Of a stretch of 45,613 nucleotides of DNA, positions 3,144 through 39,423 are shown one piece after another. A program made the position numbers and the translations under genes. Numbering within the stretch: the first letter of the stretch is position 1; every line of letters begins with the position of its first letter. The DNA is from Pontiellaceae bacterium B1224 (lineage in GTDB: Bacteria > Verrucomicrobiota > Kiritimatiellia > Kiritimatiellales > Pontiellaceae), in contig JAROBA010000041.1 of NCBI GenBank assembly GCA_029432815.1, positions 1 to 45,613 on the forward strand, in the 5' to 3' direction. The notes under the pieces were generated by a model that did no database searches, was not told the DNA's origin, and saw nothing but the letters and a program-made list of their open reading frames with translations.

Positions 3144-3297
3144 ACAGGAGGGTGTTAAGGGAGAGGCTTATCTCAACCGTTGGGAGTTCGGCCTGGGTAT
3201 CACCACGGAGGGGGGAGGATAAGGCATTATGCAGCCAGCTGGATCAGGAGCCGATGCCGGCGAACCAGGTCGCCGTTCAGTTGGGAGTTTATTACCG

Positions 3298-3320: not shown

Positions 3321-3373
3321 ATTAGCGTTGGCATGGAAGGGAAAGCCATTATTATGTTTGGGGGTAGATAGAG

Positions 3374-4943: not shown

Positions 4944-4964
4944 GACAGAAGTAGAATCGCGCAT

Positions 4965-9024: not shown

Positions 9025-9066
9025 GGGGGTATATTCATACCCTATACAAGCAATCATTGTTACGTA
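9025..9066 (+). promoter_or_regulatory. operator/promoter copy 1 (palindrome plus -10-like box)
   Basis: GG then the perfect palindrome GGGTATATTCATACCC (9027-9042; 6-bp arms, 4-bp spacer). After 18 bases comes TACGTA (9061-9066), a possible -10. The right arm occupies the -35 position, as expected for an activator that touches RNA polymerase. The 18-base spacer matches copy 2 at 14 positions. It lies 42 bases before the 9108 start. Confidence 0.7.
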
Positions 9067-9107
9067 TCCTTGTAAATGTATACCTACGATAAGGGGAGAT
9101 CTGAGAT

Positions 9108-13670: not shown

Positions 13671-13738
13671 GGTGGTTGGTTGCTGCATCAACGTATTTTT
13701 GGTCAGGAGTTAGCCTGTCCATTAAAAAAAAGGAAAAC

Positions 13739-14407
13739 ATGAAAAGAAAAAAGATTGTACTAATAACTGGTCTGCTTGCCATGGGGGTGTTTCCGATGAT
13801 GGTTTCGGGTGCGATTATTTCAACCGGTACTGACGCACCCACTGAATACTTGAGTGATGCATTCAGTGCGAGCGAGGGGAGTTCGTATCTTGTCCGTTCG
13901 GATAGAGATCCGGTTGGGCAGTCGTTTACCCACACCACTGCCGGTGGCGAAGCATGGCGGTTGCGATCCATTACGTTCCGTTCTAATGATGCTACAGGCA
14001 CCACGAACGAAACGACGGTTGGTCTCAGCATCAATATCTATTCGGGACAGAGTGTGGGCGCGGGGGATCTGCTAGGCACATTTACGTTCAGTAACGACAC
14101 CTTCGATGCTACTCCGGATAACTATATGCGCTTTGCGTTGACAGATGGTGAATCGGCGACTGTCGGGGATTTGACCAGCGGAGCGCTGTACACGGTTGCG
14201 TTGCGCGTCACAGGCGACACCGCATTGAGAATCGACCGAAGTAGCGGAGATGTTTATGCAGGCGGACAGGGGATGTGGAATAGTTCATTTCAGAGCAACT
14301 CAGACTCAGCTTTTTGGGTGGAAGCTGTTCCTGAGCCGGCGACGCTTGGATTGATTGTCTGCTTTGGAGGGGGGGTACTCATTCTTCGTCGATTGGTACA
14401 CCTGTAA
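13739..14407 (+). CDS. PEP-CTERM sorting-domain protein
   Basis: A 222-aa exported protein. The start at 13739 (SD AGGAAA) is chosen over the longer frame from 13676 because it begins a proper signal peptide, 'MKRKKIVLITGLLAMGVF', ending near residue 24. The C-terminus has a PEP-CTERM signal: 'VPEPATLGLIV', a hydrophobic stretch and 'RRL' close to the end. Such proteins are processed by an exosortase (EpsH/XrtA-type), which is not in this window, and are usually tied to extracellular polysaccharide. The body is Ser/Thr/Asp-rich and beta-predicted; no enzyme motif is seen. It lies between two giant proteins in the same direction, 68 and 122 bases from its neighbours, so it is probably co-transcribed. 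Confidence 0.88.
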   Translation: MKRKKIVLITGLLAMGVFPMMVSGAIISTGTDAPTEYLSDAFSASEGSSYLVRSDRDPVGQSFTHTTAGGEAWRLRSITFRSNDATGTTNETTVGLSINIYSGQSVGAGDLLGTFTFSNDTFDATPDNYMRFALTDGESATVGDLTSGALYTVALRVTGDTALRIDRSSGDVYAGGQGMWNSSFQSNSDSAFWVEAVPEPATLGLIVCFGGGVLILRRLVHL

Positions 14408-14413
14408 TGAAAT

Positions 14414-14443
14414 ATTCCCCGGCCCGCTCCCAGTTCGGGGAAT
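14414..14443 (+). terminator. hairpin after the PEP-CTERM gene
   Basis: ATTCCCCG and CGGGGAAT form a perfect 8-bp stem with a 14-base loop directly after the stop at 14407. No T-run follows, so it is more likely a processing/stability hairpin or a weak attenuator than a strong terminator. Confidence 0.4.
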
Positions 14444-14529
14444 CTATTCCTAGTTTGAAAATGTTGTTGGATAAGAGAACAACGCGCAATCAGTTAAAAG
14501 TCGAATGAAACCTAAATGGAGAAAACAGC

Positions 14530-17500
14530 ATGAAAATGAGAAGGTTGGGAAGTCTGGCGGTGCTGGCGGTTATGTTGCTGGCAAGTGCGGGACAAGCACA
14601 GATTCTGATTTATCAGGATAATTATGATAATGACGGTCTTGGTGTAAATACCAATGCGGGCGGCGGTATGCTGAACCGGACTGCCAGTGTACATTCGTGG
14701 ACTGATAACGAGGCTTTGGCGTTTCTCGATAATGGTAATGGCAGCTTCAGAAACCGGGCCATTGCTTATACTGAGAATGCATTCCAATCGGATGGGGGGT
14801 TTCAGCTTGATGTTACCTACCAGCTAAATGCGACTCCTAATGGGGCGGTGGGCGGAGCCCAGCTTTCCTGGGGTTTAATCAGTGCCGACACGGATTTGTC
14901 TACATATGGACTGGGTGGGAATACCTCCGCAGCCACAGGATTCAGCCCTTTCGGTGGCACGGATGCTGAAGCAACCAATGTTTACAGTGTTGGCATTCAG
15001 ATCATCAGCGGCGCCGGCCTGAACTTTACGGATGGAGCGGGTGTTACTGTTTTAGATGCCTCCTCGTTTCCGAATATACCGGGCACCGGTGCGACAAACA
15101 TTAGTTTCAGCGTTGTGGATGACGGGTTAGGCGGTGCGGACTGGAGTTTGTCACTGGGTCCTACAAACCTGGCTTCAGGTAATATTACAGTGTTTGATTT
15201 CACGAAAAGCTACCGGTTTGCTTCATACGGCCAGGATGATAACCGTTCGTTCCAAATTGATTCAGTGAGTCTGTATGGTCTGGGGAATCAGGCTCCCATT
15301 GCAGATGCGCAAAGTGTGACCGCCACTGTAGGCACATCGCAGGCCATTACCTTGAGCGGCTGGGATCCGGATTCGGGGCCCGGCAGCTTGGAGTTTACGG
15401 TTGAGACGCAGCCGGCTTACGGCACGTTGAGCGGAACAGCGCCGAATTTAATCTATACACCGCATGCCGGCTATCTTGGTGAGGATTATTTTACATTCAC
15501 CTGTAATGACAGCTCTGCCACCGGGATCTCGGCCACGGTATCGATTTCAGTTGTGCGTCCGGGAAGATCCCTTCACTTTGCTGATCTCAGCTCGGCGTTA
15601 GCCAACAACACGCTGAATGTGGACGGCAGCACCAACAATCTGGAGGTTGCCAGTTTTGTGGACGGCTACAATTATATCTATTCGGTAACCTATACCGGTG
15701 CGGATTTTGACGGCGATGCCCTCAATGATACACTGACCTTCGAGGTGCTGGTTGAGGCCTGGGATGGGGGAGAAATTAATACCGAATTTACCAGCACGGA
15801 TGCAGAGGTGAACGCGTATCACGGCTCGGCGGAAATCGGTGGTAATGATGTTCCGGTAACCATCGGCGCAGAAGGTTGGGCCGTGAATGCCGCAAATATG
15901 CTTTCCGGAGAGACTCTGCAGTACTCCCTTCAGTACCTGAATGTCACAGCGACACGGGGTGGCAACTACACCGCCGCACTGGATAGGTTTACAGGAACTT
16001 TTTTTAATGAGAGTGGTACTTCGTATGGCCACTTAACGGTAATTGGCGAAGGTGCCGGTCTGCTTGATACGCGCTGGAATAGCGGGATCCGCGATTTGAC
16101 CGGAGTTCTCGATGAGTGGGCTCCTCTCTATATTTCATCAGCCAACTTGAACGGTTTGCCGGATAACAGTCATCAGAGCTGGCAGGTACAGGATATTGAT
16201 TTTGATCTTCTGGTGTGGGAAACCGCCATCAACCAGGTGCCGGAAGCTCATTCTCTGAGCATAACAGCATTCCCGGATCATGATCTGGACTTCGCGCTGA
16301 AAACCAGAGATCTCGAAGGCAGTCTCCTGAACTACACGATCACGGATGCGCCGACAAACGGCAGCTTGAGCGGAGAGGGATCGGACAGGACCTATAGCCC
16401 GGATCCCGGTTTCCAGGGAACCGACAGTTTTACCTATTATGTCAGTGGCGGTGGTGACGAAAGCTTCCCGGCCACGGTATCGATTACGGTAACGAATATG
16501 GTTCCGGTTGCCAATGCACAAAGTGTAGCCACGATACCCGATACCGGAGTGGGCATCACCTTGACCGCCAGCGATGCTGATAGTGGACCCAGTAACCTGA
16601 TCTATACCGTGACTGCATTCCCGACCTATGGCTCTTTGACCGGAGCAGTTCCGAATGTCACCTATATCCCGGCCAGCGGATATATCGGGTCTGACAGCTT
16701 CACGTTTACGGTCAATGACGGATATGATGAGAGTGCTCCGGCTGTGGTATCGATTACGGTAAACAATCAGCCGCCCACGGCTGATCCGCAAAGTGTGGAG
16801 GTATTCCGTAATGGTACATTGGATGTTACGCTGACCGCCAGCGACCTGGACGGCCCTAGTAACCTGACCTACTTCGTTGAATCATTCCCGACGAATGGCT
16901 CACTGAATGGCACGGTACCCAATCTGACGTATGAACCCGTAGCTGATTATGTCGGGTTTGACAGCTTCACGTTCTCGGCCTATGACGGGATGGATACAAG
17001 TGCTGTAGTTACCGTTTCGATTACGGTGATCAATAATCCTCCGGTTGCTGATTCAAAAGTGGTGTGGACCCAGCCTGATACGTCTGCTGAAATTACTCTG
17101 ACAGGTAGCGATCAGGAAGGAAGTAATCTGACGTTCAATGTGGTTTCGCTGCCGGCCGGCGGTCTGCTTGCGACGAACGGAGTGCTGCCGAATCTGACGT
17201 ACACACCGATCAACGGTTTTACTGGAACGGACAGTTTTACCTATACCGTAAATGACGGTGAGGAGGACAGTGCTCCGGCCACGGTAACGATCAGGGTGTC
17301 GGACGATGGTTTTAATCTCTCCTTTGAGGATCTGGGAACGGCTTTGTCCGGCAATACGCTGACGGTGGATGGTCTTGCTGACAACCTGACGGTTTCCGGC
17401 GTTGCCACTAACAATGATTACCTCTATGCGGTAACGTATACCCATGCAGATATGGATGGGGACGGTTTGAGCGATACCCTGACATTTGATGTGCTGGTGG

Positions 17501-18201
17501 AAGGTTGGAGTGACGGTGCTATTACCACATCCGCAGCGCTCAGTAACGGCGTTGTTGTGGCGACCAATGGTACGGCGACGATCGGAACCACCGATGCAGA
17601 TGTACTTTTAGGTGCATATGGATGGGCTGTGGATGACGCCACGATGAATCCGGGGCAGACACTGGTCTTCACGCTGCAAAACCTTTCCCTTGCCCTGACC
17701 GGTGACTCGCTGGAAGGAAGCAAGGCGGAAATTGGTTTTACCAGTGCAGCATTTAGGGAAACCGGAGGCAGCTATGGTCATCAGACCGTTATTGGAGTCG
17801 GAACCGGACTGCTCGAATCGCGTTGGGACGCTACGGTGCATACTCTCTCGGGTTTGGGTACGGGGTCTGAGTCGCTCTATATTTCATCAGCCCCTCAAAA
17901 CGGCACGGGCGCCAATACGCAGCGCTGGGCGGTTGAAGGTATAGACTTCGGTATTATGATTGTGCTGGGTTCTACTGCACCTGCGGATGTCACTGCCGGT
18001 ATTATTTCGGGCGGAACCCAAATGGAGCTCTGTTGGGAAGGGCGTGCCGGAAAAACCTACGGTGTGCAAACGACTGATGATCTGGTTTACGGCTCGTGGA
18101 GTAACCTCATTACAGATATTGAAGGTGGTGATGGCCAAATGTGCATAACCAATAACATTAGTGGAGATCAGCGGTTCTTCCGTACATATTTCCAGGAATA
18201 A
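14530..18201 (+). CDS. giant secreted protein with domain A, two domain B copies and cadherin-like repeats
   Basis: A 1223-aa secreted protein. Signal peptide to about residue 23 ('ASAGQAQ'). Domain A (about 24-252) is followed by one Big_9/cadherin-like repeat (about 253-341), domain B copy 1 (about 344-566), four further repeats (about 567-924, each with 'YGSLTG..PN.TY.P..GY.G.DSFT'-type sequence), domain B copy 2 (about 927-1145) and a short beta tail. Unlike 9108 and 24145 it lacks the beta-helix, so it may be a binding, adhesive or scaffold protein. The repeats are Ca-binding-type (Asp-rich DxD turns). The start has GGAG upstream; ATG 14536 is a close alternative. A strong hairpin follows its stop. 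Confidence 0.85.
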   Translation: MKMRRLGSLAVLAVMLLASAGQAQILIYQDNYDNDGLGVNTNAGGGMLNRTASVHSWTDNEALAFLDNGNGSFRNRAIAYTENAFQSDGGFQLDVTYQLNATPNGAVGGAQLSWGLISADTDLSTYGLGGNTSAATGFSPFGGTDAEATNVYSVGIQIISGAGLNFTDGAGVTVLDASSFPNIPGTGATNISFSVVDDGLGGADWSLSLGPTNLASGNITVFDFTKSYRFASYGQDDNRSFQIDSVSLYGLGNQAPIADAQSVTATVGTSQAITLSGWDPDSGPGSLEFTVETQPAYGTLSGTAPNLIYTPHAGYLGEDYFTFTCNDSSATGISATVSISVVRPGRSLHFADLSSALANNTLNVDGSTNNLEVASFVDGYNYIYSVTYTGADFDGDALNDTLTFEVLVEAWDGGEINTEFTSTDAEVNAYHGSAEIGGNDVPVTIGAEGWAVNAANMLSGETLQYSLQYLNVTATRGGNYTAALDRFTGTFFNESGTSYGHLTVIGEGAGLLDTRWNSGIRDLTGVLDEWAPLYISSANLNGLPDNSHQSWQVQDIDFDLLVWETAINQVPEAHSLSITAFPDHDLDFALKTRDLEGSLLNYTITDAPTNGSLSGEGSDRTYSPDPGFQGTDSFTYYVSGGGDESFPATVSITVTNMVPVANAQSVATIPDTGVGITLTASDADSGPSNLIYTVTAFPTYGSLTGAVPNVTYIPASGYIGSDSFTFTVNDGYDESAPAVVSITVNNQPPTADPQSVEVFRNGTLDVTLTASDLDGPSNLTYFVESFPTNGSLNGTVPNLTYEPVADYVGFDSFTFSAYDGMDTSAVVTVSITVINNPPVADSKVVWTQPDTSAEITLTGSDQEGSNLTFNVVSLPAGGLLATNGVLPNLTYTPINGFTGTDSFTYTVNDGEEDSAPATVTIRVSDDGFNLSFEDLGTALSGNTLTVDGLADNLTVSGVATNNDYLYAVTYTHADMDGDGLSDTLTFDVLVEGWSDGAITTSAALSNGVVVATNGTATIGTTDADVLLGAYGWAVDDATMNPGQTLVFTLQNLSLALTGDSLEGSKAEIGFTSAAFRETGGSYGHQTVIGVGTGLLESRWDATVHTLSGLGTGSESLYISSAPQNGTGANTQRWAVEGIDFGIMIVLGSTAPADVTAGIISGGTQMELCWEGRAGKTYGVQTTDDLVYGSWSNLITDIEGGDGQMCITNNISGDQRFFRTYFQE

Positions 18202-18217
18202 GCGGACTGATTCTTAA

Positions 18218-18295
18218 GTATATTCGGGGAAGTGCAACGTTTTCCCGAATATACATAGAAGAAAAGTGCTCTTTTTTGAGAAAGAGTGCTTTTTA
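18218..18295 (+). terminator. tandem hairpins after the 14530 gene
   Basis: A 14-bp stem (18218-18231 with 18241-18254, one G-U pair, 9-base loop) is followed by a second small hairpin (CTCTTT with AAAGAG, 18270-18285) and a T-run (18290-18294). It probably ends or attenuates the first unit. A very AT-rich stretch follows (18294-18318, containing TATAAT at 18303), which could give the fucosidase/sulfatase pair its own promoter, although no good -35 is seen. Confidence 0.55.
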
Positions 18296-18367
18296 TATTA
18301 TATATAATATATTTTTTAAAAACAAATGACGCAAGATAGATGTGTAAATAAAAGGAATGCCAGTAAA

Positions 18368-19792
18368 ATGAAGAGATCTCATAAATCCGTGATCATAGCG
18401 CTGTCATGCTTTGCTGGTGTGGCCGCTGCAAGAGCGCAGGTTGTACCTGTACCAACTGCAGATAAAAGCACTGGACGTGCGGCCTGGATGGATGAAGCAA
18501 AGTATGGAATGTTTATTCATTGGGGAGTCTATTCTGCGTTGGCAAATGGCGAATGGGTGATGTGTCGGAGCAAAATTCCTGTTGCTGAATATAAAGAGAT
18601 GGCTTCCAAATTTAATCCGACACAATTCGATGCAGATCAATGGGTGGCGGTCGCAAAAAAAGCTGGGATGAAATATATCACCATTACCAGTAAGCACCAT
18701 GATGGTTTTGCCATTTTTGATTCTCAAGTCAGCGATTATAATGTGGTCGATTATACCCCTTTCAAACGCGATGTGCTGGCAGAGCTTAAAGTGGCCTGTG
18801 ATAAGGCGGGAATTAAACTTGGGTTTTACTACTCGCAGACGCAGGATTGGGAGTATCCGGGCGGGGCCGGCCGTAAATGGGATCATAAGGTACAACGAGG
18901 GGATTTCCGGAAGTATATCGATTCCAAGGCGATCCCGCAGCTGAAGGAGATTATGGCCTATGAACCTACGCATATCTGGTTTGATACACCCCATTCTATG
19001 ACGCCTGAACTTGGCCGTGAATTTGTAGCTGTTGTTCGTGAGGCTGATCCCGATTGTATTATCAACAGTCGCCTGATGTATCATGGCAATCAGGTTGAAG
19101 GGTTGAAGCCAGCGCAGTTGGAGGAATTGAAGAGTATGGGTGTTGACTTTCTTTCCTACCGCGATCGTACGATTCCTCCCAAGAGCCCATGGGAATACTG
19201 GGAGACTTGCATGACTCTGAATGGTGCATGGGGGTATAATGCGAAAGATAACAATTGGAAAACGCCGAAACAGGTGATCATGCAGCTTACCGAGGTGGTC
19301 AGTAAGGGAGGAACTTTTCTGTTGAACGTGGGCCCAACTGGAGAGGGGCTTATTCCTGAGCAGGCAGTTAAAAACCTGGAGGTCGCAGGCGAATGGCTAA
19401 AAGTGAACGGTGAGTCCATTTATGGGGCGTGCGGTACCATCTTCGAAGGTGAAGGGCAATTTATTACACGCACCGCAGCTGAACAGGCGGCGCTGGATAA
19501 GGAGGCTTTGGAAACGGGGGCCGGAAAAAGAAAGAAAGGCCACGAGCAAAAGGACTACGCCTGGCTGGCCACCGGGCGCGAAGGCAAACTCTATCTGCAT
19601 TTCTTCCAGTGGCCGACCGAGCCTTTTGTATTGCATGGGTTTGATAAAGACATGGTGACCGGCTCCTATTTTCTGGCCGATCCGGCAATGAGTCCCGTTA
19701 AGTTTACCCAGAAGGGCGGTTCGGTTACCGTAAATCTTCCCTCTAAACCTCTTGATGACCTCAATACTGTTTTGTGCCTGATCCTCGAATAG
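18368..19792 (+). CDS. GH29 alpha-L-fucosidase (1)
   Basis: A secreted 474-aa GH29 enzyme. ATG 18368 is preferred to 18326 because it opens a clean signal peptide (residues 1-23, ending 'AARAQ') and has an AAGGA upstream. GH29 marks: 'KYGMFIHWGVYS', 'ITSKHHDGFAIFD', 'FKRDVLAEL', 'GFYYSQTQDW', the nucleophile Asp206 in 'HIWFDTPHS', and 'GGTFLLNVGPTGEGLIP'. The family removes terminal alpha-L-fucose with retention. A charged insert near residues 375-405 lies before the C-terminal beta domain. The sulfatase gene follows after 25 bases, so the pair probably acts on sulfated fucose residues. Confidence 0.92.
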   Translation: MKRSHKSVIIALSCFAGVAAARAQVVPVPTADKSTGRAAWMDEAKYGMFIHWGVYSALANGEWVMCRSKIPVAEYKEMASKFNPTQFDADQWVAVAKKAGMKYITITSKHHDGFAIFDSQVSDYNVVDYTPFKRDVLAELKVACDKAGIKLGFYYSQTQDWEYPGGAGRKWDHKVQRGDFRKYIDSKAIPQLKEIMAYEPTHIWFDTPHSMTPELGREFVAVVREADPDCIINSRLMYHGNQVEGLKPAQLEELKSMGVDFLSYRDRTIPPKSPWEYWETCMTLNGAWGYNAKDNNWKTPKQVIMQLTEVVSKGGTFLLNVGPTGEGLIPEQAVKNLEVAGEWLKVNGESIYGACGTIFEGEGQFITRTAAEQAALDKEALETGAGKRKKGHEQKDYAWLATGREGKLYLHFFQWPTEPFVLHGFDKDMVTGSYFLADPAMSPVKFTQKGGSVTVNLPSKPLDDLNTVLCLILE

Positions 19793-19817
19793 GTCGAACA
19801 CCTTTTAAGGAATGAAT

Positions 19818-21257
19818 ATGAAGCTTAAATCAGTAGCGACCGCTTTAACTCTCTTCTGCATTTTAGGTGCTTCGCTGGCAGATGCAGGCAAACCGAATAT
19901 CCTGTTCATCTTCGCGGATGACATGTGTTACGAAAGCATCGGGGCGTATGGCCTTGAGGACATTGATACACCGAATCTGGATAAACTGGTAAGCAACGGG
20001 ATGAGTTTTACCCATGCCTATAATATGGGGGCTTGGGGCGGCGCGGTTTGCGTGGCGAGTCGTAAGATGCTTAACACCGGACTCTTTGTCTGGCGATCGC
20101 AGCAAGCGAATCTGAATCAATATGTGAGTGACCGGAAAATGTGGTCGCAACGGTTGAGCGATGCCGGCTATCAGACCTACCTTACAGGGAAGTGGCATGT
20201 TTCAACCCCTGCTCCTCAGATTTTTGACCATGCAAAAAATATCCGTAAGGGAATGCCGGAACAGGTGCCTTCCGGGTACAACCGGCCGAAAAATGAAGAG
20301 GATTATAAAAAGGGCTGGAAGCCATGGGATCCGAAGCATGGGGGCTTTTGGCAGGGAGGAAAGCATTGGAGTGAAGTATTGGCAGATGACAGCATTGAAT
20401 TTCTGAATCAGGCGGCTGAAGATGATCAGCCTTTCTTCATGTATCTTGCGTTCAACGCACCGCACGATCCGCGGCAGGCGCCGAAGGAATACATCGATCG
20501 CTATCCGCTCGACCGCATTAAGCTGCCGGAAAATTTTCAGCCCGAATATCCCTATCTGGAGACGATCTGCGGAAAAATCCGTGACGAGCAACTTGCACCT
20601 TTTCCACGCACGGAATACTCCATCAAGGTGAATCGGCAGGAATATTATGCGCTGATTACGCATATGGATGAGCAGATCGGGAAAATTTTCCAGGCATTGG
20701 AAAAGACCGGGAAAGCAGACAATACCTATATCGTCTTTACGGCGGACCACGGCCTGGCCGTTGGTCACCACGGTCTGGTGGGCAAGCAGAATATGTATGA
20801 ACACAGTGTGCGCGTTCCGTTTCTGGTTAAGGGGCCGGGTGTGAAAGCCGGATCGAAAAACGACACGCCGATTTATCTTCAGGATATTGTGCCGACTACA
20901 TTGGGATGGGCTGGTGCCGGTACGGATGATATTGATTTCAAAACATTGAAACCGTTGCTGCAGGGTAAAACAGGAAATCACTATGATTCAATCTACGGTG
21001 CCTACATGAAGTCGCAGCGCATGGTTCTGAAGGATAACTGGAAGTTGATTGTCTATCCGGGCATCGGTCTGACGCGGCTGTTTAATATCGCAAAGGACCC
21101 GCTGGAAATGAACGACCTGGCAGCACATCCGGAATATACTTTGATGTTGAAAGAGCTGAGTGATGAGCTTGAATCAAAGATGGATGAACTGAGCGATCCC
21201 ATGGCTTCGATCGTGATACCGGACCGCCCGGCACCGAAGAAAAAGAAAAGAAGGTGA
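19818..21257 (+). CDS. sulfatase, formylglycine type (1)
   Basis: A secreted 479-aa S1-type sulfatase. ATG 19818 is chosen (AAGGA seven bases upstream); ATG 19812 is too close to the SD. Signal peptide to about residue 23. Asp34-Asp35 ('IFADD') are metal ligands. The site converted to formylglycine is Cys78 in 'CVASR', a C-x-A-x-R variant of the usual C-x-P-x-R. 'TGKWHVS', 'NAPHDPR' and 'TADHGLAVGHHG' complete the active-site set. It hydrolyses sulfate esters on carbohydrate; the specificity cannot be told. The C-terminus is Lys-rich ('PKKKKRR'). No maturase gene is in the window. It is co-directional with GH29 (1) and converges on the response regulator. Confidence 0.92.
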   Translation: MKLKSVATALTLFCILGASLADAGKPNILFIFADDMCYESIGAYGLEDIDTPNLDKLVSNGMSFTHAYNMGAWGGAVCVASRKMLNTGLFVWRSQQANLNQYVSDRKMWSQRLSDAGYQTYLTGKWHVSTPAPQIFDHAKNIRKGMPEQVPSGYNRPKNEEDYKKGWKPWDPKHGGFWQGGKHWSEVLADDSIEFLNQAAEDDQPFFMYLAFNAPHDPRQAPKEYIDRYPLDRIKLPENFQPEYPYLETICGKIRDEQLAPFPRTEYSIKVNRQEYYALITHMDEQIGKIFQALEKTGKADNTYIVFTADHGLAVGHHGLVGKQNMYEHSVRVPFLVKGPGVKAGSKNDTPIYLQDIVPTTLGWAGAGTDDIDFKTLKPLLQGKTGNHYDSIYGAYMKSQRMVLKDNWKLIVYPGIGLTRLFNIAKDPLEMNDLAAHPEYTLMLKELSDELESKMDELSDPMASIVIPDRPAPKKKKRR

Positions 21258-21323: not shown

Positions 21324-21989
21324 CTAATCGCTGAACGGGAGGATGCCGAACTTGTAGGCTTTTGAGATGGCGGCGGCCGCGTTTTGCACATGGAGTTTTT
21401 CGTAGATGCTCACAACATAGTTGGAAACGGTGTTGGCACTAATTTGGAGCTGGTCTGCAATTTCTTTTTTCAACAGGCCTTCACTGAGTAAATGTAGAGT
21501 TTCAAGTTCCCGGTTGCTCAGCTCCTTATCAAGTGTTGTCACAGGAAGATGTTTCTGGATGGATTGTAAAATATACTTTGCAATATGCTGGTCGATGGTG
21601 GCCCCCCCTGCAGCGACAGATCGGATGGCGGCAATGATTTCTTTTACGGTAGAGGATTTGAGCAGATAGCCGGATGCGCCGTGCTGAATCCCTTTGAGCA
21701 CATCGGCTTCTTTATTCGACTGAGTCAGGATGATGACTTTGGTGTCGGGAATGGAGGCTCGGAAATAGGGCAGCGCTTCGAGACCGGAGAGTCCCGGCAG
21801 ATTCAGGTCGAGCAGAATCAGGTCGGGTTCTTTGCGGAATGCGCGGTCCTGCAGGCTGCGTAGGGCGCGTTCTGCTGAACCGAACTGATTGATCAGCTCG
21901 ATGTCCGATTCTTCTTCAATGGCAAGCTGAATGACTTCTCGGTATTCGGGGTGGTCTTCCACCAACATGACTCGGAGTTTTCGTTTCAT
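21324..21989 (-). CDS. NarL/LuxR-family response regulator
   Basis: A 221-aa cytoplasmic DNA-binding regulator. The receiver domain has Glu11-Asp12, the phospho-acceptor Asp61 ('LLDLNLPG'), Thr89 and Lys111, all intact. A LuxR/GerE helix-turn-helix ends the protein ('LSNRELETLHLLSEGLLKKEIADQ', 'ANTVSNYVVSIYEKLHV'). The SD AAGGAAA precedes ATG 21989. The start lies inside the end of the sensor-kinase gene (74-base overlap), so translation is probably coupled. It is the only specific transcription factor in the CAZyme part and is the best candidate to bind the palindromes at 9027, 24022 and 28450. Confidence 0.93.
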   Translation of the reverse strand: MKRKLRVMLVEDHPEYREVIQLAIEEESDIELINQFGSAERALRSLQDRAFRKEPDLILLDLNLPGLSGLEALPYFRASIPDTKVIILTQSNKEADVLKGIQHGASGYLLKSSTVKEIIAAIRSVAAGGATIDQHIAKYILQSIQKHLPVTTLDKELSNRELETLHLLSEGLLKKEIADQLQISANTVSNYVVSIYEKLHVQNAAAAISKAYKFGILPFSD

Positions 21990-23964
21990 GGTGTTTCCTT
22001 CGGTTGCGGAGTCGTAGGATCATCAAAATCTGAGTACCGCCGTTTTGAGAGCTTTCAGCATACACTTTGGCTCGCAGTAGACGAGCCCGGCGTTTAAGAG
22101 AGGGCGGAACTTCGCTGTGGTGCACGCTGTCGACCATTCCATGACCGTTATCCGTGATGGTCAGGGTAATGTTGCGAGGTGATGCCGCCAAGTGTGCAGA
22201 GAATTTCGTGGCTCCTGAGTGACGACTTATATTCACGAGGCCTTCTTTGTAGAAGAGGAATAGGTCTACCCTGGTGCGTGGTTTGAGGTGGCGTAGATAT
22301 GGTTCGCCCTCAAAGGTCAACTCGCCTTCAATATCCGCCATGATGCGCTCTGTTGAGCGCTGCATATCTTCGAGCAAGTCGCCGTAGAGTCCATCAGCTT
22401 CCAATATGTTGGTGAATTCGCGTACGGCAATGCCTGAACGTTCAGTCATGGTCCGAATTCGATTGTGCAGGTTCTGAAGTTTTTCCGGGGAGTGGGCTGC
22501 CGCTTGGGCCAGATCGCCCAGCAGTCCGATGACGTGGAGGTTGGCCCCCAGTTCGTCGTGCAAATCGGCCGCGAAACGATTGCACATTCCGGCCATCTTC
22601 CGCTGATGAATCAGCCGTTCAACCAGTATGCTGATGATCGTGACTGCTGTGAGTAGAGCCGCCAGCCAGGCCAGGAGGTTCAGATTCGCTTTTTGATGCT
22701 CGTAGCGGGTGTTCAGTTCCGTAGCAATGAGGGGGCGTTCGTGTTCGAGGTCATGGCGTCGGGCCAGCTGGTTCATCCACTCCCGGATAGGTAGAATGTT
22801 TCCGTAGTAGTTCAGACCGTCCGTTATTCGGCGTAACGTATCCCTTTTATAGATGAGATTTGAACTGGCTGTAACCGGAGCATTCAGGGCGGTGTTTTTG
22901 CCCTTGGATAACACTTCGATTTCCGAAAAAGCGAACTGGGACGCTGTTTTCTGCGGCGAGTCGACGGGCATGGGATTGAGGATGGTAATGCGGATATAGC
23001 GGCACATCGTTTCCGGAAAGCGGCGCATAATAATGGGGCCGGTATCGTAGATGGTTTCCTGTTTGTGTTCAAAGAGGAGGACTTCGTCTGAAAAATCGGA
23101 ATGCTTGGCCCCGCTGACCCGGATGTGACTCGGTACGGACCAGTTGCTAATATTTTTCATCGGGATGGAGAGGGCCACATCGGCTGTATGCAGATTGATC
23201 TGATTGACCGAGAAAGGGGCTTTTAGGTCCAGCGTTAGGGATGGAGCCTGGCGCTGGTTGCGGATGCGTATAACCTGTGTCTGACTCCGGTCTCCCCGGG
23301 CGGCATCCATCAGGTAGGGGGTGAACCCGTCGGTGAGAAACTGAGGAGGCCAATGACCCTGACCTTGGCTCGATACGGCAACGTTTTTTCCAAGCGCGAC
23401 ATTCTCCATCCCACTGAAAACCATGATTTCGGATAATTGAAGCAGGTATTTATTGTTCATGATGCGCGGCGATAGTGTGGTGGCTTCGATGCTGACCCAG
23501 GATGCCCTTACAGGGGGAAAGTCTACTGAAAGCGGAGCGATACGAGGTAGGAGACCATCCTTTTGAGAGCGGTTTGCCACTATCACCTGTTCGGAGAGGC
23601 TTGTACCCACAATAATACGGAATGCGAGAGGAAAACCTTCTGCTATATGACCGGTCCGTGATTCGCGCCAGAGGGATGGAACAAGAACGATCTGGTCAAT
23701 GAGGACTTCTTCGCCCAGTTCGATTCGAATGAACTCTTCTGCGTCCGGGGTTGGGTGGAGTTGGGATTGATAGCTCACGGAACCCGTGCCGCCCCGCAGT
23801 GAATAAACGGCGAGTCGCTCAAGTTCGGAGTTAATATCGCTTTGGCGCTGTTCCAGTTCCGAGAGGGACAATTCACTCAATGTCGGGGGAGATTGCTTAA
23901 TACTGCCCCTGGCCGGGAGCACGCCTGTCAGTAATATTAAAATGAATAAAACCTTAAATGTCAT
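21916..23964 (-). CDS. sensor histidine kinase with discoidin-like extracytoplasmic region
   Basis: A 682-aa membrane sensor. ATG 23964 starts a signal peptide ('MTFKVLFILILLTGVLPARG'); the frame is open to a TTG at 23973. Two F5/8-type-C (discoidin)-like modules seem to fill residues about 45-375 ('GMENVALGKNVAVSS', 'MCRYIRITILNPMPVDSP'), a fold that often binds sugars. One transmembrane segment (about 428-448) leads to a HisKA_3 domain with the phospho-acceptor His469 in 'DLHDELGANLH', and an HATPase_c domain ('EGLVNISRHSGA', 'ITDNGHGM', 'NGGTQI'). The tail after residue 655 is out-of-frame overlap with the regulator. It probably senses released oligosaccharide and drives the neighbouring regulator. 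It is divergent from the 24145 gene. Confidence 0.9.
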   Translation of the reverse strand: MTFKVLFILILLTGVLPARGSIKQSPPTLSELSLSELEQRQSDINSELERLAVYSLRGGTGSVSYQSQLHPTPDAEEFIRIELGEEVLIDQIVLVPSLWRESRTGHIAEGFPLAFRIIVGTSLSEQVIVANRSQKDGLLPRIAPLSVDFPPVRASWVSIEATTLSPRIMNNKYLLQLSEIMVFSGMENVALGKNVAVSSQGQGHWPPQFLTDGFTPYLMDAARGDRSQTQVIRIRNQRQAPSLTLDLKAPFSVNQINLHTADVALSIPMKNISNWSVPSHIRVSGAKHSDFSDEVLLFEHKQETIYDTGPIIMRRFPETMCRYIRITILNPMPVDSPQKTASQFAFSEIEVLSKGKNTALNAPVTASSNLIYKRDTLRRITDGLNYYGNILPIREWMNQLARRHDLEHERPLIATELNTRYEHQKANLNLLAWLAALLTAVTIISILVERLIHQRKMAGMCNRFAADLHDELGANLHVIGLLGDLAQAAAHSPEKLQNLHNRIRTMTERSGIAVREFTNILEADGLYGDLLEDMQRSTERIMADIEGELTFEGEPYLRHLKPRTRVDLFLFYKEGLVNISRHSGATKFSAHLAASPRNITLTITDNGHGMVDSVHHSEVPPSLKRRARLLRAKVYAESSQNGGTQILMILRLRNRRKHHETKTPSHVGGRPPRIPRSHSACH

Positions 23965-24019
23965 CGGTCTCAATTTATTCTAATACAGGGGGGAATAAAA
24001 CAAATTCCTCTCTTTTTGA

Positions 24020-24061
24020 GGGGGTGTATTCATACCCTTTACGAGCCATCATTTTTACATA
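24020..24061 (+). promoter_or_regulatory. operator/promoter copy 2
   Basis: GG then GGGTGTATTCATACCC (24022-24037), one base different from copy 1, with TACATA at 24056-24061 exactly 18 bases later. It lies in the divergent region between the sensor kinase and the 24145 gene, 108 bases before the latter, and could also affect the kinase/regulator pair (autoregulation). Confidence 0.7.
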
Positions 24062-24144
24062 GTGTTTCATATGTCAACTTGGGAAAGGGATATTCAAAGG
24101 AGCTTATCCCCCCTTACAGGACTAATCAGAAAAAAGAGGGACAA

Positions 24145-27100
24145 ATGAAACAAATAAAGTGTTTGTTTGCAATGGCGGTATCTTTGCTGGGCATGAACCT
24201 GGCTCATGGAGGAATAACAACCCATACGATCCAGTTCTCTGATTTGAGTCCGGGTGATGGTGTTGAAAATACGCTGAACGTAAACGGTGAGTCAGCGAAT
24301 ATCGAAGTTGTCAGAGATGATCTGAGTCATCTAGGTGATATTAGCTATAACGTCACCTATGAGAGCGATCTTGATGGCAATGGTTCCCTGGATACGATTG
24401 AGTTTACCATCAATGTGGCGGCGGTGAGTGGTTCAGTGGCCGATCATGGCCTGACTGATGTTGTCAGTACCGATTCTGCAACGGCCAGTATCGGAACTGA
24501 AAATGCGAGTCTGAGGGCTACTTCGTTTCTTTCGATCAATGGAAATACGCCTGATGGAAGCACGTTGATCTATACACTGAATGGTTTGCGGTCGAGTGTA
24601 GGCAACCTGCAATTTGATGGATTTACTGGATTTGAATACTTAGAAAATTCGGGACATGGTCATGGATATGTTGTCGGCATAGGTGATGGCTTATTGGGCC
24701 GGGCTTGGAATGATATCGGTGACGAAGTTCTTCGCTCAGCGACGCCGATTCTTTATGTGACTGGAGATCAGAAGAATGGAACGACGCGTCTGCCAGAGGC
24801 GTGGGGAATTGGAAATGTGGATTTTTCATTTACCATTACGGACAGAGTCGACACGGCGGACACATTTTATGTGAAGACCGATGGGGATGATACTAGTGAT
24901 GGAAAGAGCATCGATAATGCCTTTGCCACGATCCAACATGCGGCCCATCAAATGGGGCCGGGGGATACGTGTTACATTCTTGGTGGCGTTTACCGCGAGA
25001 CGGTTGATCTGTCGAATTTGGCCGGGACGGCCAATAACCCTATCACCTTCATGAATTATCAGGATCAAGCCGTATATATTGACGGTACGGATGAGATCAC
25101 AGGGAAATGGAATAAAGAGAGAGCTTTGTGGCTCGAGGGAGACGTGGCTGGTACATTTTATAATGGTACCTCCCTGACCAATATGCCAGGCATCGGGAAC
25201 GTTTACCGGACAACACTACCTCAGGATTTCGGGCCTATTAAACAGTTGTTTGTTGGCGATAAGATCATGACCTTAGCTCGCTTTCCCAATGCTCCGGCCT
25301 ACTCAGATACGGTTTGGACAAGTGAAGCCCAGCGCCTTAAGTTTCGGGATGGGCAGGTTGAGGAAGGGCAAATTAGTGACAGGACCCACGCGGTAGATAA
25401 TTCGGTCGGGACGCACACGCTGGCTAACTCCGGTGTCTCCTATGTAGATTGCGTGGCAGTAACGAGTTTTTCCGGAGTCCAGTATGTTACGGAACATGAG
25501 CCTGGTGATGCTCAGTTCACCTATTCTTCTTCAGGCGGGTATGCCGACGCACGTAGAACCTATTTCATGGAAGGAGGCTTGGGGTATGCCGAGCGGGTCA
25601 TGTTGGACTCGGAAGGGGAGTGGGCCTATGACGAAAATACCGGAATCGTGGCTCTCTGGGCACCTGGTGGTGGCGATCCTGACTGGATCGATGAAGGGAT
25701 CTACGCTCAAACGCGGACGTATGGTTTTATCGGAAACCCTTACACCCAATATATTACTATTGATGGAGTTAATTTATTTGCTGCTACCTTTCATTTTAAA
25801 TCGTCCGATAACATTACGCTTCAGAATTGTGATCTGAGCTATTACGCATCTTCGGAACGGGCATTCGCAGGGCAAGAGCAGAGCGATACCGCTGAGTTTA
25901 TCGGGCGAAAGGTGGATTTTTGCAAAAATATAACCGTTTACAACTGTGCATTCAAGTATGCACCTGACACGGGTTTTCGGGCTAACTATGTTGATTCTCT
26001 GTTGCTTGAAAATAACCTGTTCTATATGACGGTTTATGCGTCTGTCGGTGGCTCGGATGAATATGGTGAAGGGCGAGGAGCTAACACGGTAGATTGTGAT
26101 AATGTCAAAGATTTGACCTATCGACGCAATACGATGGCCACTTCCGGAGCTGCTCAGGGGATTCGTGCGAGAAGATATATTGACCCGGACCCTGAGGCCC
26201 CGGTTCGACCTATCGTTTGCGAGTATAATTTTCATACGGATTGCGGCATTATGACAACCGATGGCTCTTCGATGTATATACCGGAGGAGCACGCTATCGA
26301 GTCTGTGGCTCGTTTCAACTGGTTCATCGAAAACAAACAGCGATGCTTTAGATGGGATGGAGCTAACCCTGTCGGGAATATCAAAACGCTGAGGGGTAAC
26401 CTGTATCGCAATGTGACAACATCAAACCAGAAGCGCGGAGGAGCTTCCAGCTTCCGATTGAAAGGAGACGAGCATGAAATTTATAATAATCTCGGCTTTA
26501 ATGATAATTCCGCAATCAATGTAGCAGAAGATAAGGGCGGGAATCCGAATTCGCGTGTCTATAATAACGCAGCAGATTCGCTGACCACGTACTTGGACCC
26601 TAGTGAGACGAACTTTTTTGACAGCGGCACTTGGTGGGGCCAACGTGGTGATGGCGATTTCGGTCTTGCAGGGGATGACCTTGATGACGAGAACACCTCT
26701 ATTAACTTCCTTGGCCAATTAGAATCAAGATCGTTGGATGACCTCTTGCGCGATCCGTCTAACTATGATTTCCGTCCGAAGGCAGATGCTTATGAGTTGA
26801 TTGATCAGGGAGTGGAAGTCACAAATTGTACTGTTAATGGTGAACTGGTTGATGTCACAAAAGACTTCTATGGTGCGGCACCTGACTTGGGTGCATATGA
26901 GTATAACCCTGACTTGAAGTCTTACTGGATTCCCGGTCGACAAGAAGCCTATGCCACTATGCCGATTCCTAGGGACGGAGGAGTTGGCGTTCCTCTCAGT
27001 ACGGACCTCATGTATCTGAACGGGCTGAAGGCGTCCCAAACCAAAATTTACATGGGTGAGAGTGCAGACAACCTGACGCTATTGGCTGAAAGAGGGGCAG

Positions 27101-28365
27101 GGCACACTCAGGAAAATGTCATAGCGACAGATGGTTATGGGTTGAAGCCGAATACCACCTATTATTGGCGTGTGGATACGATATTAACCGATGGCACCGT
27201 GATTGACGGCGATATCTGGTCGTTTACTACCAGTCCTAAAGATCTGCTTCCCTTGGAGAACAGAACGATAGTGGGTGGTGAATGGGAAGAGCAAAGGCAC
27301 TACGTTGTTTATAATAACAACAGTACCGCTAAAAATAACCGAGGGATTCTTTATTCAGCAAATGCTTATCAGTCAACCGACGGATTTAAGCTGACGGTGG
27401 TTTATCAGACCGGTCGAATCGATACGGTTTACGGTCATAATTTTTCCTTCGGTCTAATCAGCACGGATACAGATCTCTCCACGTATACAGGATTCAACCC
27501 CTTCAGCTGGGCTACGGAGGATGTTTACAGCCTTGGAGCCAATGTTGCAGGAGATGATGCGTTCAGAGGGTTGAACTTTACTGACGGAACAACATGTACG
27601 AATTTGGATCAATCCGGAGACAATGCCCAGTTTAGTGTTGATGCATTCACGCCGGTTACGATTGAGATTCGTCCTGGAGGGGCATGGACGTATTCCATCA
27701 ATGGAGTTGTGGAAGCAAGTGGCGTGATTGCCGGCGGATTTGATCTGAGCAAGAGTTATCGCGTCGTGGCTTACGGTCAAGACGACCATGGCGGCGGAAA
27801 AATGATTGAGTCTATGGCGCTGGATCTACTGGGCGAGCCGGTGAGATTAATTGCCGGGGTCAGCCCGGATTCCGGCCCGGCAGCTGGAGGGACGGTGGTG
27901 ACGATTTCCGGCACGAACCTCGGGAACGGAACCGACATCACGAATGTGACACTTCGCGGCGTGGCGGCAGCCTCTATCGATAGCCAGTCTTCAACGCAAG
28001 TTGTTGCAACGACTGCTTCCGGAACCGCCGGAACCGGCGATGTCGTAGTAACCTCAATCAGCCGTGGGACGACCACCAAAAGGAATGCTTTTTCCTATGT
28101 GGAGAATCAGATCATCAGAATTGACGGGATTGAATATGTGGCAGGCAACGGCACGTTCCTGATGGGATTCGCCGCCACCCCGGGGCAGACCTATTTGATT
28201 CAGTATACCGATAGTTTGACCAACGGGTGGACTACAGTTCAGCCCGGCATCGTTGCCCCGAGCAACCGGGTGCAGTGGGTCGACTCCGGGTTGCCCGGCA
28301 CGGAGAGCTCGCCTGCCGAGGCAGCAACCCGCTTCTATCGCGTTATTAATGCGGATCAGAATTAA
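24145..28365 (+). CDS. giant secreted protein: domain B, beta-helix, domain A, TIG
   Basis: About 1406 aa. ATG 24145 (SD AGAGGG) begins a signal peptide; the longer frame from 24016 would run through the operator region. Order: signal to about 23, domain B (25-230), beta-helix (240-924) with a DUF1565-like opening ('FATIQHAAHQMGPGDTCY'), Fn3-like module (925-1030, 'YYWRVDTILTDG'), a domain A copy lacking the 'DNDxLxVNT' front (1042-1229), a TIG/IPT module (1233-1319, 'SGPAAGGTVVTISG'), and a beta tail ('YLIQYTDSLTNGW', 'RFYRVIN'). The beta-helix aligns by eye with 9108 along its length (for example 'MTLARFPN' against 'MTLARWPN', 'YIPEE', 'SVARFNWF'). Possibly a lyase or hydrolase of an unknown family; no catalytic residues are identified. 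Confidence 0.85.
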   Translation: MKQIKCLFAMAVSLLGMNLAHGGITTHTIQFSDLSPGDGVENTLNVNGESANIEVVRDDLSHLGDISYNVTYESDLDGNGSLDTIEFTINVAAVSGSVADHGLTDVVSTDSATASIGTENASLRATSFLSINGNTPDGSTLIYTLNGLRSSVGNLQFDGFTGFEYLENSGHGHGYVVGIGDGLLGRAWNDIGDEVLRSATPILYVTGDQKNGTTRLPEAWGIGNVDFSFTITDRVDTADTFYVKTDGDDTSDGKSIDNAFATIQHAAHQMGPGDTCYILGGVYRETVDLSNLAGTANNPITFMNYQDQAVYIDGTDEITGKWNKERALWLEGDVAGTFYNGTSLTNMPGIGNVYRTTLPQDFGPIKQLFVGDKIMTLARFPNAPAYSDTVWTSEAQRLKFRDGQVEEGQISDRTHAVDNSVGTHTLANSGVSYVDCVAVTSFSGVQYVTEHEPGDAQFTYSSSGGYADARRTYFMEGGLGYAERVMLDSEGEWAYDENTGIVALWAPGGGDPDWIDEGIYAQTRTYGFIGNPYTQYITIDGVNLFAATFHFKSSDNITLQNCDLSYYASSERAFAGQEQSDTAEFIGRKVDFCKNITVYNCAFKYAPDTGFRANYVDSLLLENNLFYMTVYASVGGSDEYGEGRGANTVDCDNVKDLTYRRNTMATSGAAQGIRARRYIDPDPEAPVRPIVCEYNFHTDCGIMTTDGSSMYIPEEHAIESVARFNWFIENKQRCFRWDGANPVGNIKTLRGNLYRNVTTSNQKRGGASSFRLKGDEHEIYNNLGFNDNSAINVAEDKGGNPNSRVYNNAADSLTTYLDPSETNFFDSGTWWGQRGDGDFGLAGDDLDDENTSINFLGQLESRSLDDLLRDPSNYDFRPKADAYELIDQGVEVTNCTVNGELVDVTKDFYGAAPDLGAYEYNPDLKSYWIPGRQEAYATMPIPRDGGVGVPLSTDLMYLNGLKASQTKIYMGESADNLTLLAERGAGHTQENVIATDGYGLKPNTTYYWRVDTILTDGTVIDGDIWSFTTSPKDLLPLENRTIVGGEWEEQRHYVVYNNNSTAKNNRGILYSANAYQSTDGFKLTVVYQTGRIDTVYGHNFSFGLISTDTDLSTYTGFNPFSWATEDVYSLGANVAGDDAFRGLNFTDGTTCTNLDQSGDNAQFSVDAFTPVTIEIRPGGAWTYSINGVVEASGVIAGGFDLSKSYRVVAYGQDDHGGGKMIESMALDLLGEPVRLIAGVSPDSGPAAGGTVVTISGTNLGNGTDITNVTLRGVAAASIDSQSSTQVVATTASGTAGTGDVVVTSISRGTTTKRNAFSYVENQIIRIDGIEYVAGNGTFLMGFAATPGQTYLIQYTDSLTNGWTTVQPGIVAPSNRVQWVDSGLPGTESSPAEAATRFYRVINADQN

Positions 28366-28447: not shown

Positions 28448-28489
28448 GGGGGTGTATACGTACCCTAGTCAGGGCATTCTGAATCTATA
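28448..28489 (+). promoter_or_regulatory. operator/promoter copy 3
   Basis: GG then GGGTGTATACGTACCC (28450-28465), two bases different from copy 2, with TCTATA at 28484-28489, again after 18 bases. The spacer is less conserved than between copies 1 and 2 (about 7 of 18 with copy 2). It precedes the PDZ remnant and the long enzyme operon that begins at 28800. Bases 28366-28447 before it hold no gene. Confidence 0.62.
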
Positions 28490-28568
28490 GAGTGTATGGT
28501 TTACACATCGATTATCAGGCTATTCAAGGTCTGATTAGGTGCCTGATGTCTAAAAACGGAAATCTATA

Positions 28569-28793
28569 TTGGCGAGTGCAGATTTTGTGAACGGAGATCT
28601 CGTTCAAGCGGTGAATGTTCGTCAGGTTAAAAATGTGAAACAGTTGAATCAGGTGATTCAGAAGGTGTCAGGAGCGGTTCAATTTAAAGTGGTGCGTAAT
28701 CAGCAGGTGATTGCTCTTTACGGTTTCACTGTAAGTTCTGCAGAGGGGAGCCGGATAGCGGTATCCATTAATTTCAGTAAAGCATGGAAATGA
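28569..28793 (+). pseudogene. PDZ-domain remnant
   Basis: A 74-codon frame without an ATG (first possible starts TTG 28569 or GTG 28587). It reads like the last two thirds of a PDZ domain: 'VNGDLVQAVNVRQVKNVKQL', then 'VQFKVVRNQQVI'. PDZ modules of this type end some secreted sulfatases and hydrolases of this phylum. Nothing before it encodes the rest: a stop is at 28551. It is probably the decayed tail of a lost enzyme gene, now lying in the leader of the operon. It ends 6 bases before the next start, so it might still be translated and couple to it. Confidence 0.5.
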
Positions 28794-28799
28794 ATTCAT

Positions 28800-30344
28800 A
28801 TGAAAAAGCAATGTGTATGGTTGGGGCTTATGGTCGCTGCGATGGGGCATGCCGAATCGGGGTGGGTGATAGAGAGCCAGTCGGACTGGCTGGAAAACCT
28901 TGGGACAAAGAGCGGCTTGAATATCGAAGAAGGAATGGTTTCTCCTGCTGAAAAGAATGCCGCCTTTTCCAGTATCATGAAGCGCTTTGATCAGAAGACT
29001 TCGGTTCAATCTATCATTATTGAACAGTCCCCGGTTTGGGAGAATTGGGAGCCGGTTTCAAACATTGGACCATCCAACCTGGGCGACGCGCCCGTGATGC
29101 TGAGCCTCGGTCCGGATAATTACTGGATGTTCGGCCGGTACAATGCGAATAAGAAAAAAGGATTTTCAGCGCAGGCTGCGACGCTGGAAGGGTTCGACAT
29201 TCCGCTCAAAACAACTCCGTTTGAAAACCAGTATGATGCACCCGGCGGGCTGATCAAGGGGCAGGGTGGATACCACGCCTGGCAGAGCAAGGATATGGTT
29301 AACTGGGTGCACCATGGTTGCGTAACTCCAGTGAAGGGAAAGTGGATGACTACAGCGGAATATGCCGATGGCAAGGCCTATTTCTACTATGACTTTCCGA
29401 ACGATCAGGATCCGCATCTCATTATCGATGAAGACTTGACTGACGGTATTCCGGGAAAGGATATGGGGCTGGTGTTCAAAGACCCGTCGCACGGATCGGA
29501 CTGCACGTTTATTCGGGACCTCGATGGAAACTTTCACGTCATTGCCGAGGACTGGGGGCCGATCGATGCGAGTACGCACGCGTGGGATTCCCCGCTGGCG
29601 ACCCATGCGGTCAGCTCCGATGGACTCGGAAATTTCAAAATCCTTGCCCCGGCAGTGGACGAACGAACCACACCTACCGGCAGGTTTGCGGAACATGTGC
29701 ATCCCCATTGGAATAGAGAAGATCCTGCTAATTATCCGGGAAAGATCGCTCCGGAAGATGTGCCGCAGCACAGGGTCAAAAAAGGAGAGGTCCGGGCCTT
29801 TGCAACCTATGAAATTCATGAGCCGGAGCAGAATGCCTATGGGGACTGGGCGTCTATTTGTATTGGCGGGCAATATTATCTCTTTGCTGACTATGATCCG
29901 GCTGGTGGGCATGGGAAAGAAAGCATGAGTGTGGCCTGGTTTACGTCGGAAGATATCAACAAGCAGTTTACGTTCTGCGGTCATATCGGGCAGGGGCATC
30001 CTGATCCGGATGTGATGTTTGCTGAAGGACGGTTTTATTTGGCGACCCAGACCAGATCGGACTATGTCAGTCCCGGCCCCTGGGTGGAGCAGGTCGAGGT
30101 GCGCGTCGGCGTCGATGTTTCCAATGATGGGAATATTGACAAGTGGACGAACTGGCAAAGAGTGCAGGAGAGCTATAACTATATCCCGGGCTTTTCCAAG
30201 CAGGTTGCCAGAACACCCGCCCAGGTCGACCTTTCGGAACTTCCGGCAGGATATGGGTTCACGTTTGAAGTGAAAATGACGGATACAACGGCAAATGCGT
30301 CTAACCCCATTCTCAATCAAATTGAGCTTACATTCAAAAAATAG
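28800..30344 (+). CDS. secreted beta-propeller glycoside hydrolase (GH43/GH117-like)
   Basis: A 514-aa protein with a signal peptide (to about residue 18, 'GHA'). The body has the look of the five-bladed propeller enzymes of clan F and GH117: 'YHAWQSKDMVNWVHHG', 'GKAYFYYDFPN', 'GSDCTFIRDLDGNFHVIAEDW', 'IGGQYYLFADYDPAGG', 'GHPDPDVMFAEGRFYLAT'. Several Asp and His residues in these motifs could be catalytic, but the family cannot be fixed from memory; GH43, GH117 or a new relative are all open. The C-terminal 80 residues form a small beta module. It is the first intact gene of the long operon behind operator copy 3; the GH97 gene follows after 15 bases. Confidence 0.65.
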   Translation: MKKQCVWLGLMVAAMGHAESGWVIESQSDWLENLGTKSGLNIEEGMVSPAEKNAAFSSIMKRFDQKTSVQSIIIEQSPVWENWEPVSNIGPSNLGDAPVMLSLGPDNYWMFGRYNANKKKGFSAQAATLEGFDIPLKTTPFENQYDAPGGLIKGQGGYHAWQSKDMVNWVHHGCVTPVKGKWMTTAEYADGKAYFYYDFPNDQDPHLIIDEDLTDGIPGKDMGLVFKDPSHGSDCTFIRDLDGNFHVIAEDWGPIDASTHAWDSPLATHAVSSDGLGNFKILAPAVDERTTPTGRFAEHVHPHWNREDPANYPGKIAPEDVPQHRVKKGEVRAFATYEIHEPEQNAYGDWASICIGGQYYLFADYDPAGGHGKESMSVAWFTSEDINKQFTFCGHIGQGHPDPDVMFAEGRFYLATQTRSDYVSPGPWVEQVEVRVGVDVSNDGNIDKWTNWQRVQESYNYIPGFSKQVARTPAQVDLSELPAGYGFTFEVKMTDTTANASNPILNQIELTFKK

Positions 30345-30359
30345 CGAAGGACTTAATGC

Positions 30360-32321: not shown

Positions 32322-32332
32322 GGAAGCTGTTC

Positions 32333-33865: not shown

Positions 33866-33946
33866 TGGGTGGGTTTGGCAACAGTCAACCGTCCGGCGCG
33901 GTCAGAAATTGCATAGATTTAAATTCAATAGAGGAAAGTAATAGCT

Positions 33947-35425: not shown

Positions 35426-35482
35426 CTCTGCTGGGGCTCAGCCTCGTAGCGGCGGCGTTTTAATCGTTGGAAAAGGAAGAAT

Positions 35483-37072: not shown

Positions 37073-37156
37073 ATAAGCTGTCCGCAAAATGATGCGAATA
37101 TCGATCTTTGGAAAAAGAACATTGGAAATAATATCAAGCACGAATTAAGCAGGTGA

Positions 37157-39385: not shown

Positions 39386-39423
39386 TAGCAGACCAGTTTT
39401 ATCAATGCGAGATGGAGGGAAAG

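Follow-up and report, generated by a model that had tools for sequence, protein, structure and literature searches.

A two-component pair with a discoidin-like sensor and candidate locus-private operators in a Pontiellaceae glycan locus

We analysed a stretch of DNA of 45,613 nucleotides from Pontiellaceae bacterium B1224 (assembly GCA_029432815.1, contig JAROBA010000041.1, positions 1 to 45,613), referred to below as the window, and in it a sensor histidine kinase and response regulator pair at 21324-23964. A preliminary description, made from the sequence alone, had placed a HisKA_3 sensor and a NarL-type partner there as separate parts. Coordinates and domain content agree with it, and the reading of open reading frames (ORFs) and Pfam matches gives two genes, not one polypeptide. 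The genes of the pair and the domains of the sensor are as follows.

21324-21989, minus strand: NarL/FixJ-type response regulator, 221 amino acids (aa), Pfam Response_reg and GerE over cut-off
21916-23964, minus strand: sensor histidine kinase, 682 aa counted from the ATG at 23964, signal peptide at about residues 1-20
22009-22266, minus strand: HATPase domain with N578 and DNG 605-607, weak Pfam match, N and G boxes conserved
22402-22581, minus strand: HisKA_3 dimerisation/phospho-acceptor domain with H469, PF07730 over cut-off, H469 at least 95% conserved
22609-22677, minus strand: single membrane span, about residues 430-452, from sequence inspection
22960-23403, minus strand: discoidin-like domain 2, about residues 188-335, F5_F8_type_C at ectodomain residues 171-306
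23404-23796, minus strand: discoidin/CBM32-like domain 1, about residues 57-187, fold match to 4zxe

The regulator scores 84 bits for Response_reg and 59 bits for GerE, each above cut-off; its DNA-binding domain is GerE, and Pfam gives no AraC match in it. Its phospho-acceptor is D61, conserved across the family of relatives described below, and its recognition helix, ANTVSNYVVSI, starts at residue 185. In the sensor, HisKA_3 (PF07730) reaches 26.2 bits against a Pfam cut-off of 24, and HATPase_c (PF02518) scores 14.5 bits, under its cut-off of 26.4. The residues of the H-box, N-box and G-box (H469, N578 and D605-N606-G607) are at least 95% conserved among 54 relatives. The two genes overlap by 74 nt; the typical overlap in the family is 4 nt.

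The sensor ectodomain appears, by structure prediction and Pfam, to be a tandem of discoidin/CBM32-like domains, with the jelly-roll fold found for domain 1 in a model of mean pLDDT (predicted local distance difference test) 54 that was built from a four-sequence alignment of the window sensor and three related loci. Domain 1 aligns with 4zxe at Z 11.5 and 2.2 A across 104 residues (VIA-align), and its top matches are all CBM32/discoidin. Domain 2 modelled alone gave a poor model with fold matches of Z about 6, and its main support comes from Pfam: F5_F8_type_C scores 22.0-25.3 bits in the window sensor, under the cut-off of 28.2, and matches 49 of 54 family ectodomains (E up to 0.01; best 5.8e-11). 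For the whole ectodomain, the best fold matches are nearly all discoidin/CBM32, the tandem matches being neuropilin b1b2 and CBM32 pairs. Discoidin-like modules had been proposed in the preliminary description, with structure prediction as the check, and these top matches, from a low-confidence model, favour the proposal. Against PDB sequences, an ectodomain profile from 4 sequences found no match, and one from 54 sequences found only marginal CBM32/fucolectin matches. Ahead of the membrane span, at 22732-22900, the start of the discoidin motif is repeated (NTALNAPVTASS...ITDG), like a truncated third module.

A candidate operator motif, GGGGTRTATWCRTACCCT, occurs in three copies in the window, one at the head of each of three enzyme units. 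The core is exact at 9027-9042 and 24022-24037 and variant at 28450-28465. Counting window core matches with at most 3 mismatches, we found 5 where 0.36 were expected, a number reached in 0/100 shuffles, and no exact core was found elsewhere in 28 congeneric genomes. The copies and the -10 boxes near them are listed here.

9026-9043, plus strand: operator 1, GGGGTATATTCATACCCT
9065-9070, plus strand: -10 box TATCCT, 21 bp from operator 1
23994-23999, minus strand: sensor-facing -10 slot TTTATT, imperfect, 21 bp from operator 2
24021-24038, plus strand: operator 2, GGGGTGTATTCATACCCT, in the divergent promoter region shared by the sensor gene and the gene at 24145
24060-24065, plus strand: -10 box TAGTGT, 21 bp from operator 2, toward the gene at 24145
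28449-28466, plus strand: operator 3, GGGGTGTATACGTACCCT
28488-28493, plus strand: -10 box TAGAGT, 21 bp from operator 3

The operator copy that the preliminary description had seen in the divergent promoter is therefore real, with an exact core. Its further suggestion that the pair controls the locus is supported by the arrangement of all three copies, each of which has TAnnnT on the plus strand at the identical gap of 21 bp. A sigma-70 scan found promoters and terminators no more frequent than in shuffles.

The pair had been presented as a special case and compared with Bacteroidetes systems; the host, however, a marine bacterium that degrades seaweed sugars, belongs to Pontiellaceae (Pontiella is a member of Kiritimatiellota), and its genome has about 13 such pairs that are close paralogs, most of them in or near glycan loci of different kinds. 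Apart from the window sensor, this genome encodes about 12-14 close relatives, at 40-58% identity, and, at a larger distance, a few more. Some sensor relatives are split by contig ends or frameshifts, and nearly all sensor paralogs are adjoined by a regulator paralog of their own. Family matches occur in 16 of 28 congeneric genomes and, at E up to 1e-20 and with a patchy spread, in 31 of 387 genomes across the phylum. Distances among kinases and among regulators correlate (Mantel r = 0.77), that is, the two are co-inherited. A sulfatase lies within 10 kb of 10 of 17 sensors, compared with 18% of the genome (p = 2e-4), and genes neighbouring the paralogs include glycoside hydrolases (GH) of families GH29, GH95, GH28 and GH115, alginate lyase and acetyl xylan esterase-like enzymes. 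Since these neighbours are so varied, the family serves glycan loci generally. The pair is accordingly not tied to sulfatase/GH29 loci, and by the condition that the preliminary description had itself named as counting against its reading (conservation of the pair in genomes without such loci), the family is not fucose-specific. The pair is a member of an expanded split two-component family for glycan loci in Pontiellaceae, found also in other Verrucomicrobiota.

Upstream of other family members we found dyads of 18 bp, composed of 6-bp arms and a 6-bp spacer, with the consensus ATCnnnnGTTTnnnnGAT. They share this architecture with the window operator and differ in their half-sites. Sixty regions upstream of sensors contain 25 dyads, against 4.0 in shuffles. 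Measured against 178 intergenic regions elsewhere in these loci, the density upstream of sensors is 14.5 per 10 kb and that of the other regions 5.4; the 6-bp spacer is specific, other spacers being enriched less. A single global operator was ruled out, the window motif being private to its locus and the paralogs carrying other half-sites. The paralog loci L076, L084, L082, L081 and L099 lack a convincing operator ahead of the sensor gene or have a frameshifted sensor (L076).

The promoter geometry recurs across the family. At 36 sensor-side operators, TAnnnT stands at a gap of 21-22 bp away from the sensor in 21 cases and toward it in 16, with other gaps mostly giving counts of 0-2; at 16 operator copies not beside a sensor, 12 have the box on the away side and 2 on the other. 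Because the -10 signal is strongest on the side away from the sensor, an account with no autoregulation was considered; it was dropped once both sides were scored (16/36 sensor-facing, 2/16 at the other copies). Self-regulation, which the preliminary description had thought possible, is thus supported at the family level and is weak in the window, where the sensor-facing slot reads TTTATT. With transcription assumed to start 7 nt past the -10 box, the operator centre would lie near -42.5 of the predicted start, just upstream of the -35 position. A centre near -42.5 is the usual position of a class II activator. No good -35 hexamer was found; by our reading the consensus carries a weak TAGnCA at the operator edge.

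We then have to consider which protein reads these dyads. Copies of the operators are concentrated in their own loci, with 11 sites (at most 2 mismatches) in 738 kb compared with 29 in 26,200 kb of other loci, an enrichment of about 12-fold. All 11 recurrences are intergenic or at a gene start, and 9 of them lie outside the window. Operators within their own genome differ at no fewer than 5 of 18 positions (median 10). Similarity of recognition helices correlates with similarity of operators (Mantel r = 0.48, 0/5000 permutations), and the correlation persists for pairs with unrelated flanks (r = 0.41) and when receiver-domain identity is given (partial Mantel r = 0.38, 0/5000). At the level of residues, His at helix position 10 goes with A at base 1 in 60/60 half-sites and Thr at helix position 6 with T at base 2 in 53/54; helix position 2 also covaries with base 5, and helix position 5 with base 6. 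Helix positions 5, 6 and 9 are 188, 189 and 192 in NarL numbering, the base-contacting residues. Among 12 held-out loci of other genera, 9 have an operator-like site within 250 bp of the sensor (0.086 expected per locus, p = 4e-8). Some of these loci carry several copies, L130 having four; L015, which is outside the count of 9 in 12, likewise has four. No ortholog with the exact window regulator helix was found in the genus. Taken as sequence evidence, which is indirect and strong, these patterns indicate that the regulator would bind a dyad whose half-site is private to its own locus.

From these data we consider it likely that the pair is a split two-component system acting from a class II site to activate its own glycan locus and, in many family members, its own gene as well, and that its paralogs are insulated from one another. 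The two discoidin/CBM32-like domains on the single-span HisKA_3 kinase would sense, outside the membrane, a fragment of a glycan or a cue related to glycans, and the kinase, judging from the families to which the proteins belong, would phosphorylate the co-encoded NarL-type regulator. A regulator dimer would then bind the 18-bp dyad with its locus-private half-site. With the centre of the dyad some 42 bp before the predicted start, the dimer could recruit polymerase, as the geometry of class II activation suggests. In the window, the three units predicted to be switched on are 9108-21257, 24145-28365 and 28800-41199. The operator in the family usually faces the sensor gene too, which may give positive autoregulation, the sensor promoter of the window appearing weaker. 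Different helices paired with different half-sites would keep the paralogs insulated within one cell.

Several observations weigh against this account. The window operator is the furthest from the family consensus (GGG for ATC at the outer bases) and was identified from its repeated occurrence and its distance to the -10 box rather than with the family model; the window regulator helix is the most unusual in the set, and the sensor-facing -10 box in the window is imperfect. Roughly 1/4 to 1/3 of sensors have no called operator upstream, and some automatic operator calls are probably wrong (e.g. L075). Permutation of labels leaves some shared descent in the helix-operator correlation, although the correlation persists under the controls for flanks and receiver. 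The two ectodomain models are of low confidence, with mean pLDDT of 54 and 41. The departure of the window operator from the consensus would also fit a different arrangement, in which other regulators, whether global or local but unrelated, occupy the dyads and the pair of kinase and regulator is a mere neighbour. We regard this as very improbable, because half-site and helix of the adjacent regulator vary together, also given receiver identity, and because each half-site is enriched in its own locus and the rule holds in other genera.

Sequence alone cannot separate an activator from a repressor, and the regulator might instead sit on its operator until released on signal. The operator leaves the -10 box uncovered, however, it is centred some 42 bp before the predicted start at a fixed spacing, and the promoters have no good -35 hexamer and only the weak TAGnCA at the operator edge, all of which make repression improbable. 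As to the signal, discoidin folds bind proteins too, and the tandem matches include neuropilin b1b2; moreover, 50 of 59 loci have a divergent gene next to the sensor, and in 39 of those 50 this gene belongs to a single, loosely linked homology cluster whose members are secreted modular proteins. The ectodomain could thus respond to a protein, for instance the secreted modular protein encoded divergently, or to the state of the cell envelope. A similar sensor stands beside differing enzymes across loci, however, as sensing of a glycan predicts, and many of the fold matches are sugar-binding CBM32 domains, so that we judge a non-sugar signal a serious possibility and the less probable one. Activation in response to a glycan-related cue is the reading that we retain.

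The enzyme units behind the three operators, which hold four GH29 genes, make this the only locus of the family that is clearly rich in fucosidases.

9108-21257, plus strand: unit 1, headed by operator 1, with genes for two large modular secreted proteins, a 243-aa protein, GH29 and sulfatase
18326-19792, plus strand: GH29 of unit 1
19812-21257, plus strand: sulfatase of unit 1
24145-28365, plus strand: unit 2 behind operator 2, a secreted modular protein of 1406 aa with a TIG domain, divergent from the sensor
28800-41199, plus strand: unit 3 behind operator 3, a 514-aa protein, GH97, sulfatase, GH29, GH29, GH141-like and GH29

In unit 1, an inverted repeat with 17-nt arms and a terminator-like hairpin lie within 18215-18294, between the gene for a 1223-aa secreted protein and the GH29 gene; they may attenuate the unit, and the hairpin (18261-18294) may split it. 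Between operator 3 and the gene for the 514-aa protein, a 74-aa ORF (28569-28793) resembles a fragment of a PDZ domain and could be a small gene or a remnant. The 637-aa protein encoded at 42336-44249 has no Pfam match; its N-terminus (SLMVH in a membrane helix) recalls TonB, and relatives of it lie near several paralog sensors (L073, L075, L082). The left end of the window (435-6182) holds likely defence genes, for a PDC-S26-type PD-(D/E)XK nuclease, a WYL regulator, an Mrr-type restriction nuclease and a ZacA-like DUF6361 protein, and an IS1634-family transposase (6677-8476; NCBIfam 297 bits) lies between them and the glycan locus.

As the preliminary description had stated, the locus is without SusC/SusD: among the 20 window proteins scanned there are no Pfam matches to SusC, SusD or a TonB receptor, and lacking a SusC/SusD pair it is not a polysaccharide utilisation locus in the strict sense. 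The closest parallel in regulation is the hybrid two-component system (HTCS) of Bacteroides, an expanded set of paralogs in which every glycan locus has a sensor of its own and every sensor a separate DNA motif through which the adjacent genes are controlled; B. thetaiotaomicron has 36 HTCS paralogs (PMC3878776, PMC11253607). The family described here shares this layout. Whereas an HTCS is one polypeptide with an AraC domain and a direct-repeat motif, kinase and regulator are separate here, the regulator is of NarL/LuxR type with GerE, and the motif is an inverted repeat with 6-bp arms; the sensor is discoidin-like, and the targets are without SusC/SusD. The pair is therefore a functional analogue of HTCS, not a member, the defining features being absent. 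In combining a HisKA_3 kinase with a NarL-family regulator it resembles NarX/NarQ-NarL and UhpB-UhpA, and its best NCBIfam matches are UhpB/MctS/NarX and NarL/MctR, all far under cut-off. Unlike those systems, it has a discoidin ectodomain, glycan loci and locus-private 18-bp dyads of 6-6-6 layout. In the same genus, a passage on Pontiella agarivorans reports histidine kinase and response regulator genes near GH and sulfatase genes, in some cases with PF07730, PF02518 and PF00072, and that passage is without sensor fold, paralog family, operators or promoter geometry (PMC10880615). In the literature searched, on discoidin kinases and regulator recognition codes, we found no discoidin sensor family of this kind, no such private operators and no helix-operator rule.

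Kiritimatiellota and their relatives have large sulfatase and glycosidase arsenals, and the only description of their regulation that we found, in the passage just cited, is a remark on nearby kinases and regulators. With a promoter rule that applies throughout the family (18-bp dyad, 21-22 bp, TAnnnT), operons and substrates can be assigned in uncultured genomes. The gene set apparently under each paralog is predictable from sequence, and the layout is present also in further genera of the phylum. Regulator and operator pairs, of which nature supplies tens, form a data set on how NarL-type DNA specificity changes without cross-talk within one cell. With somewhat better than even confidence, we propose that portable glycan control by one sensor per locus arose in Verrucomicrobiota in parallel to the HTCS of Bacteroides, and that helix and half-site co-diversified under a simple residue-to-base rule, so that regulons and changes of specificity may be predictable across genera.
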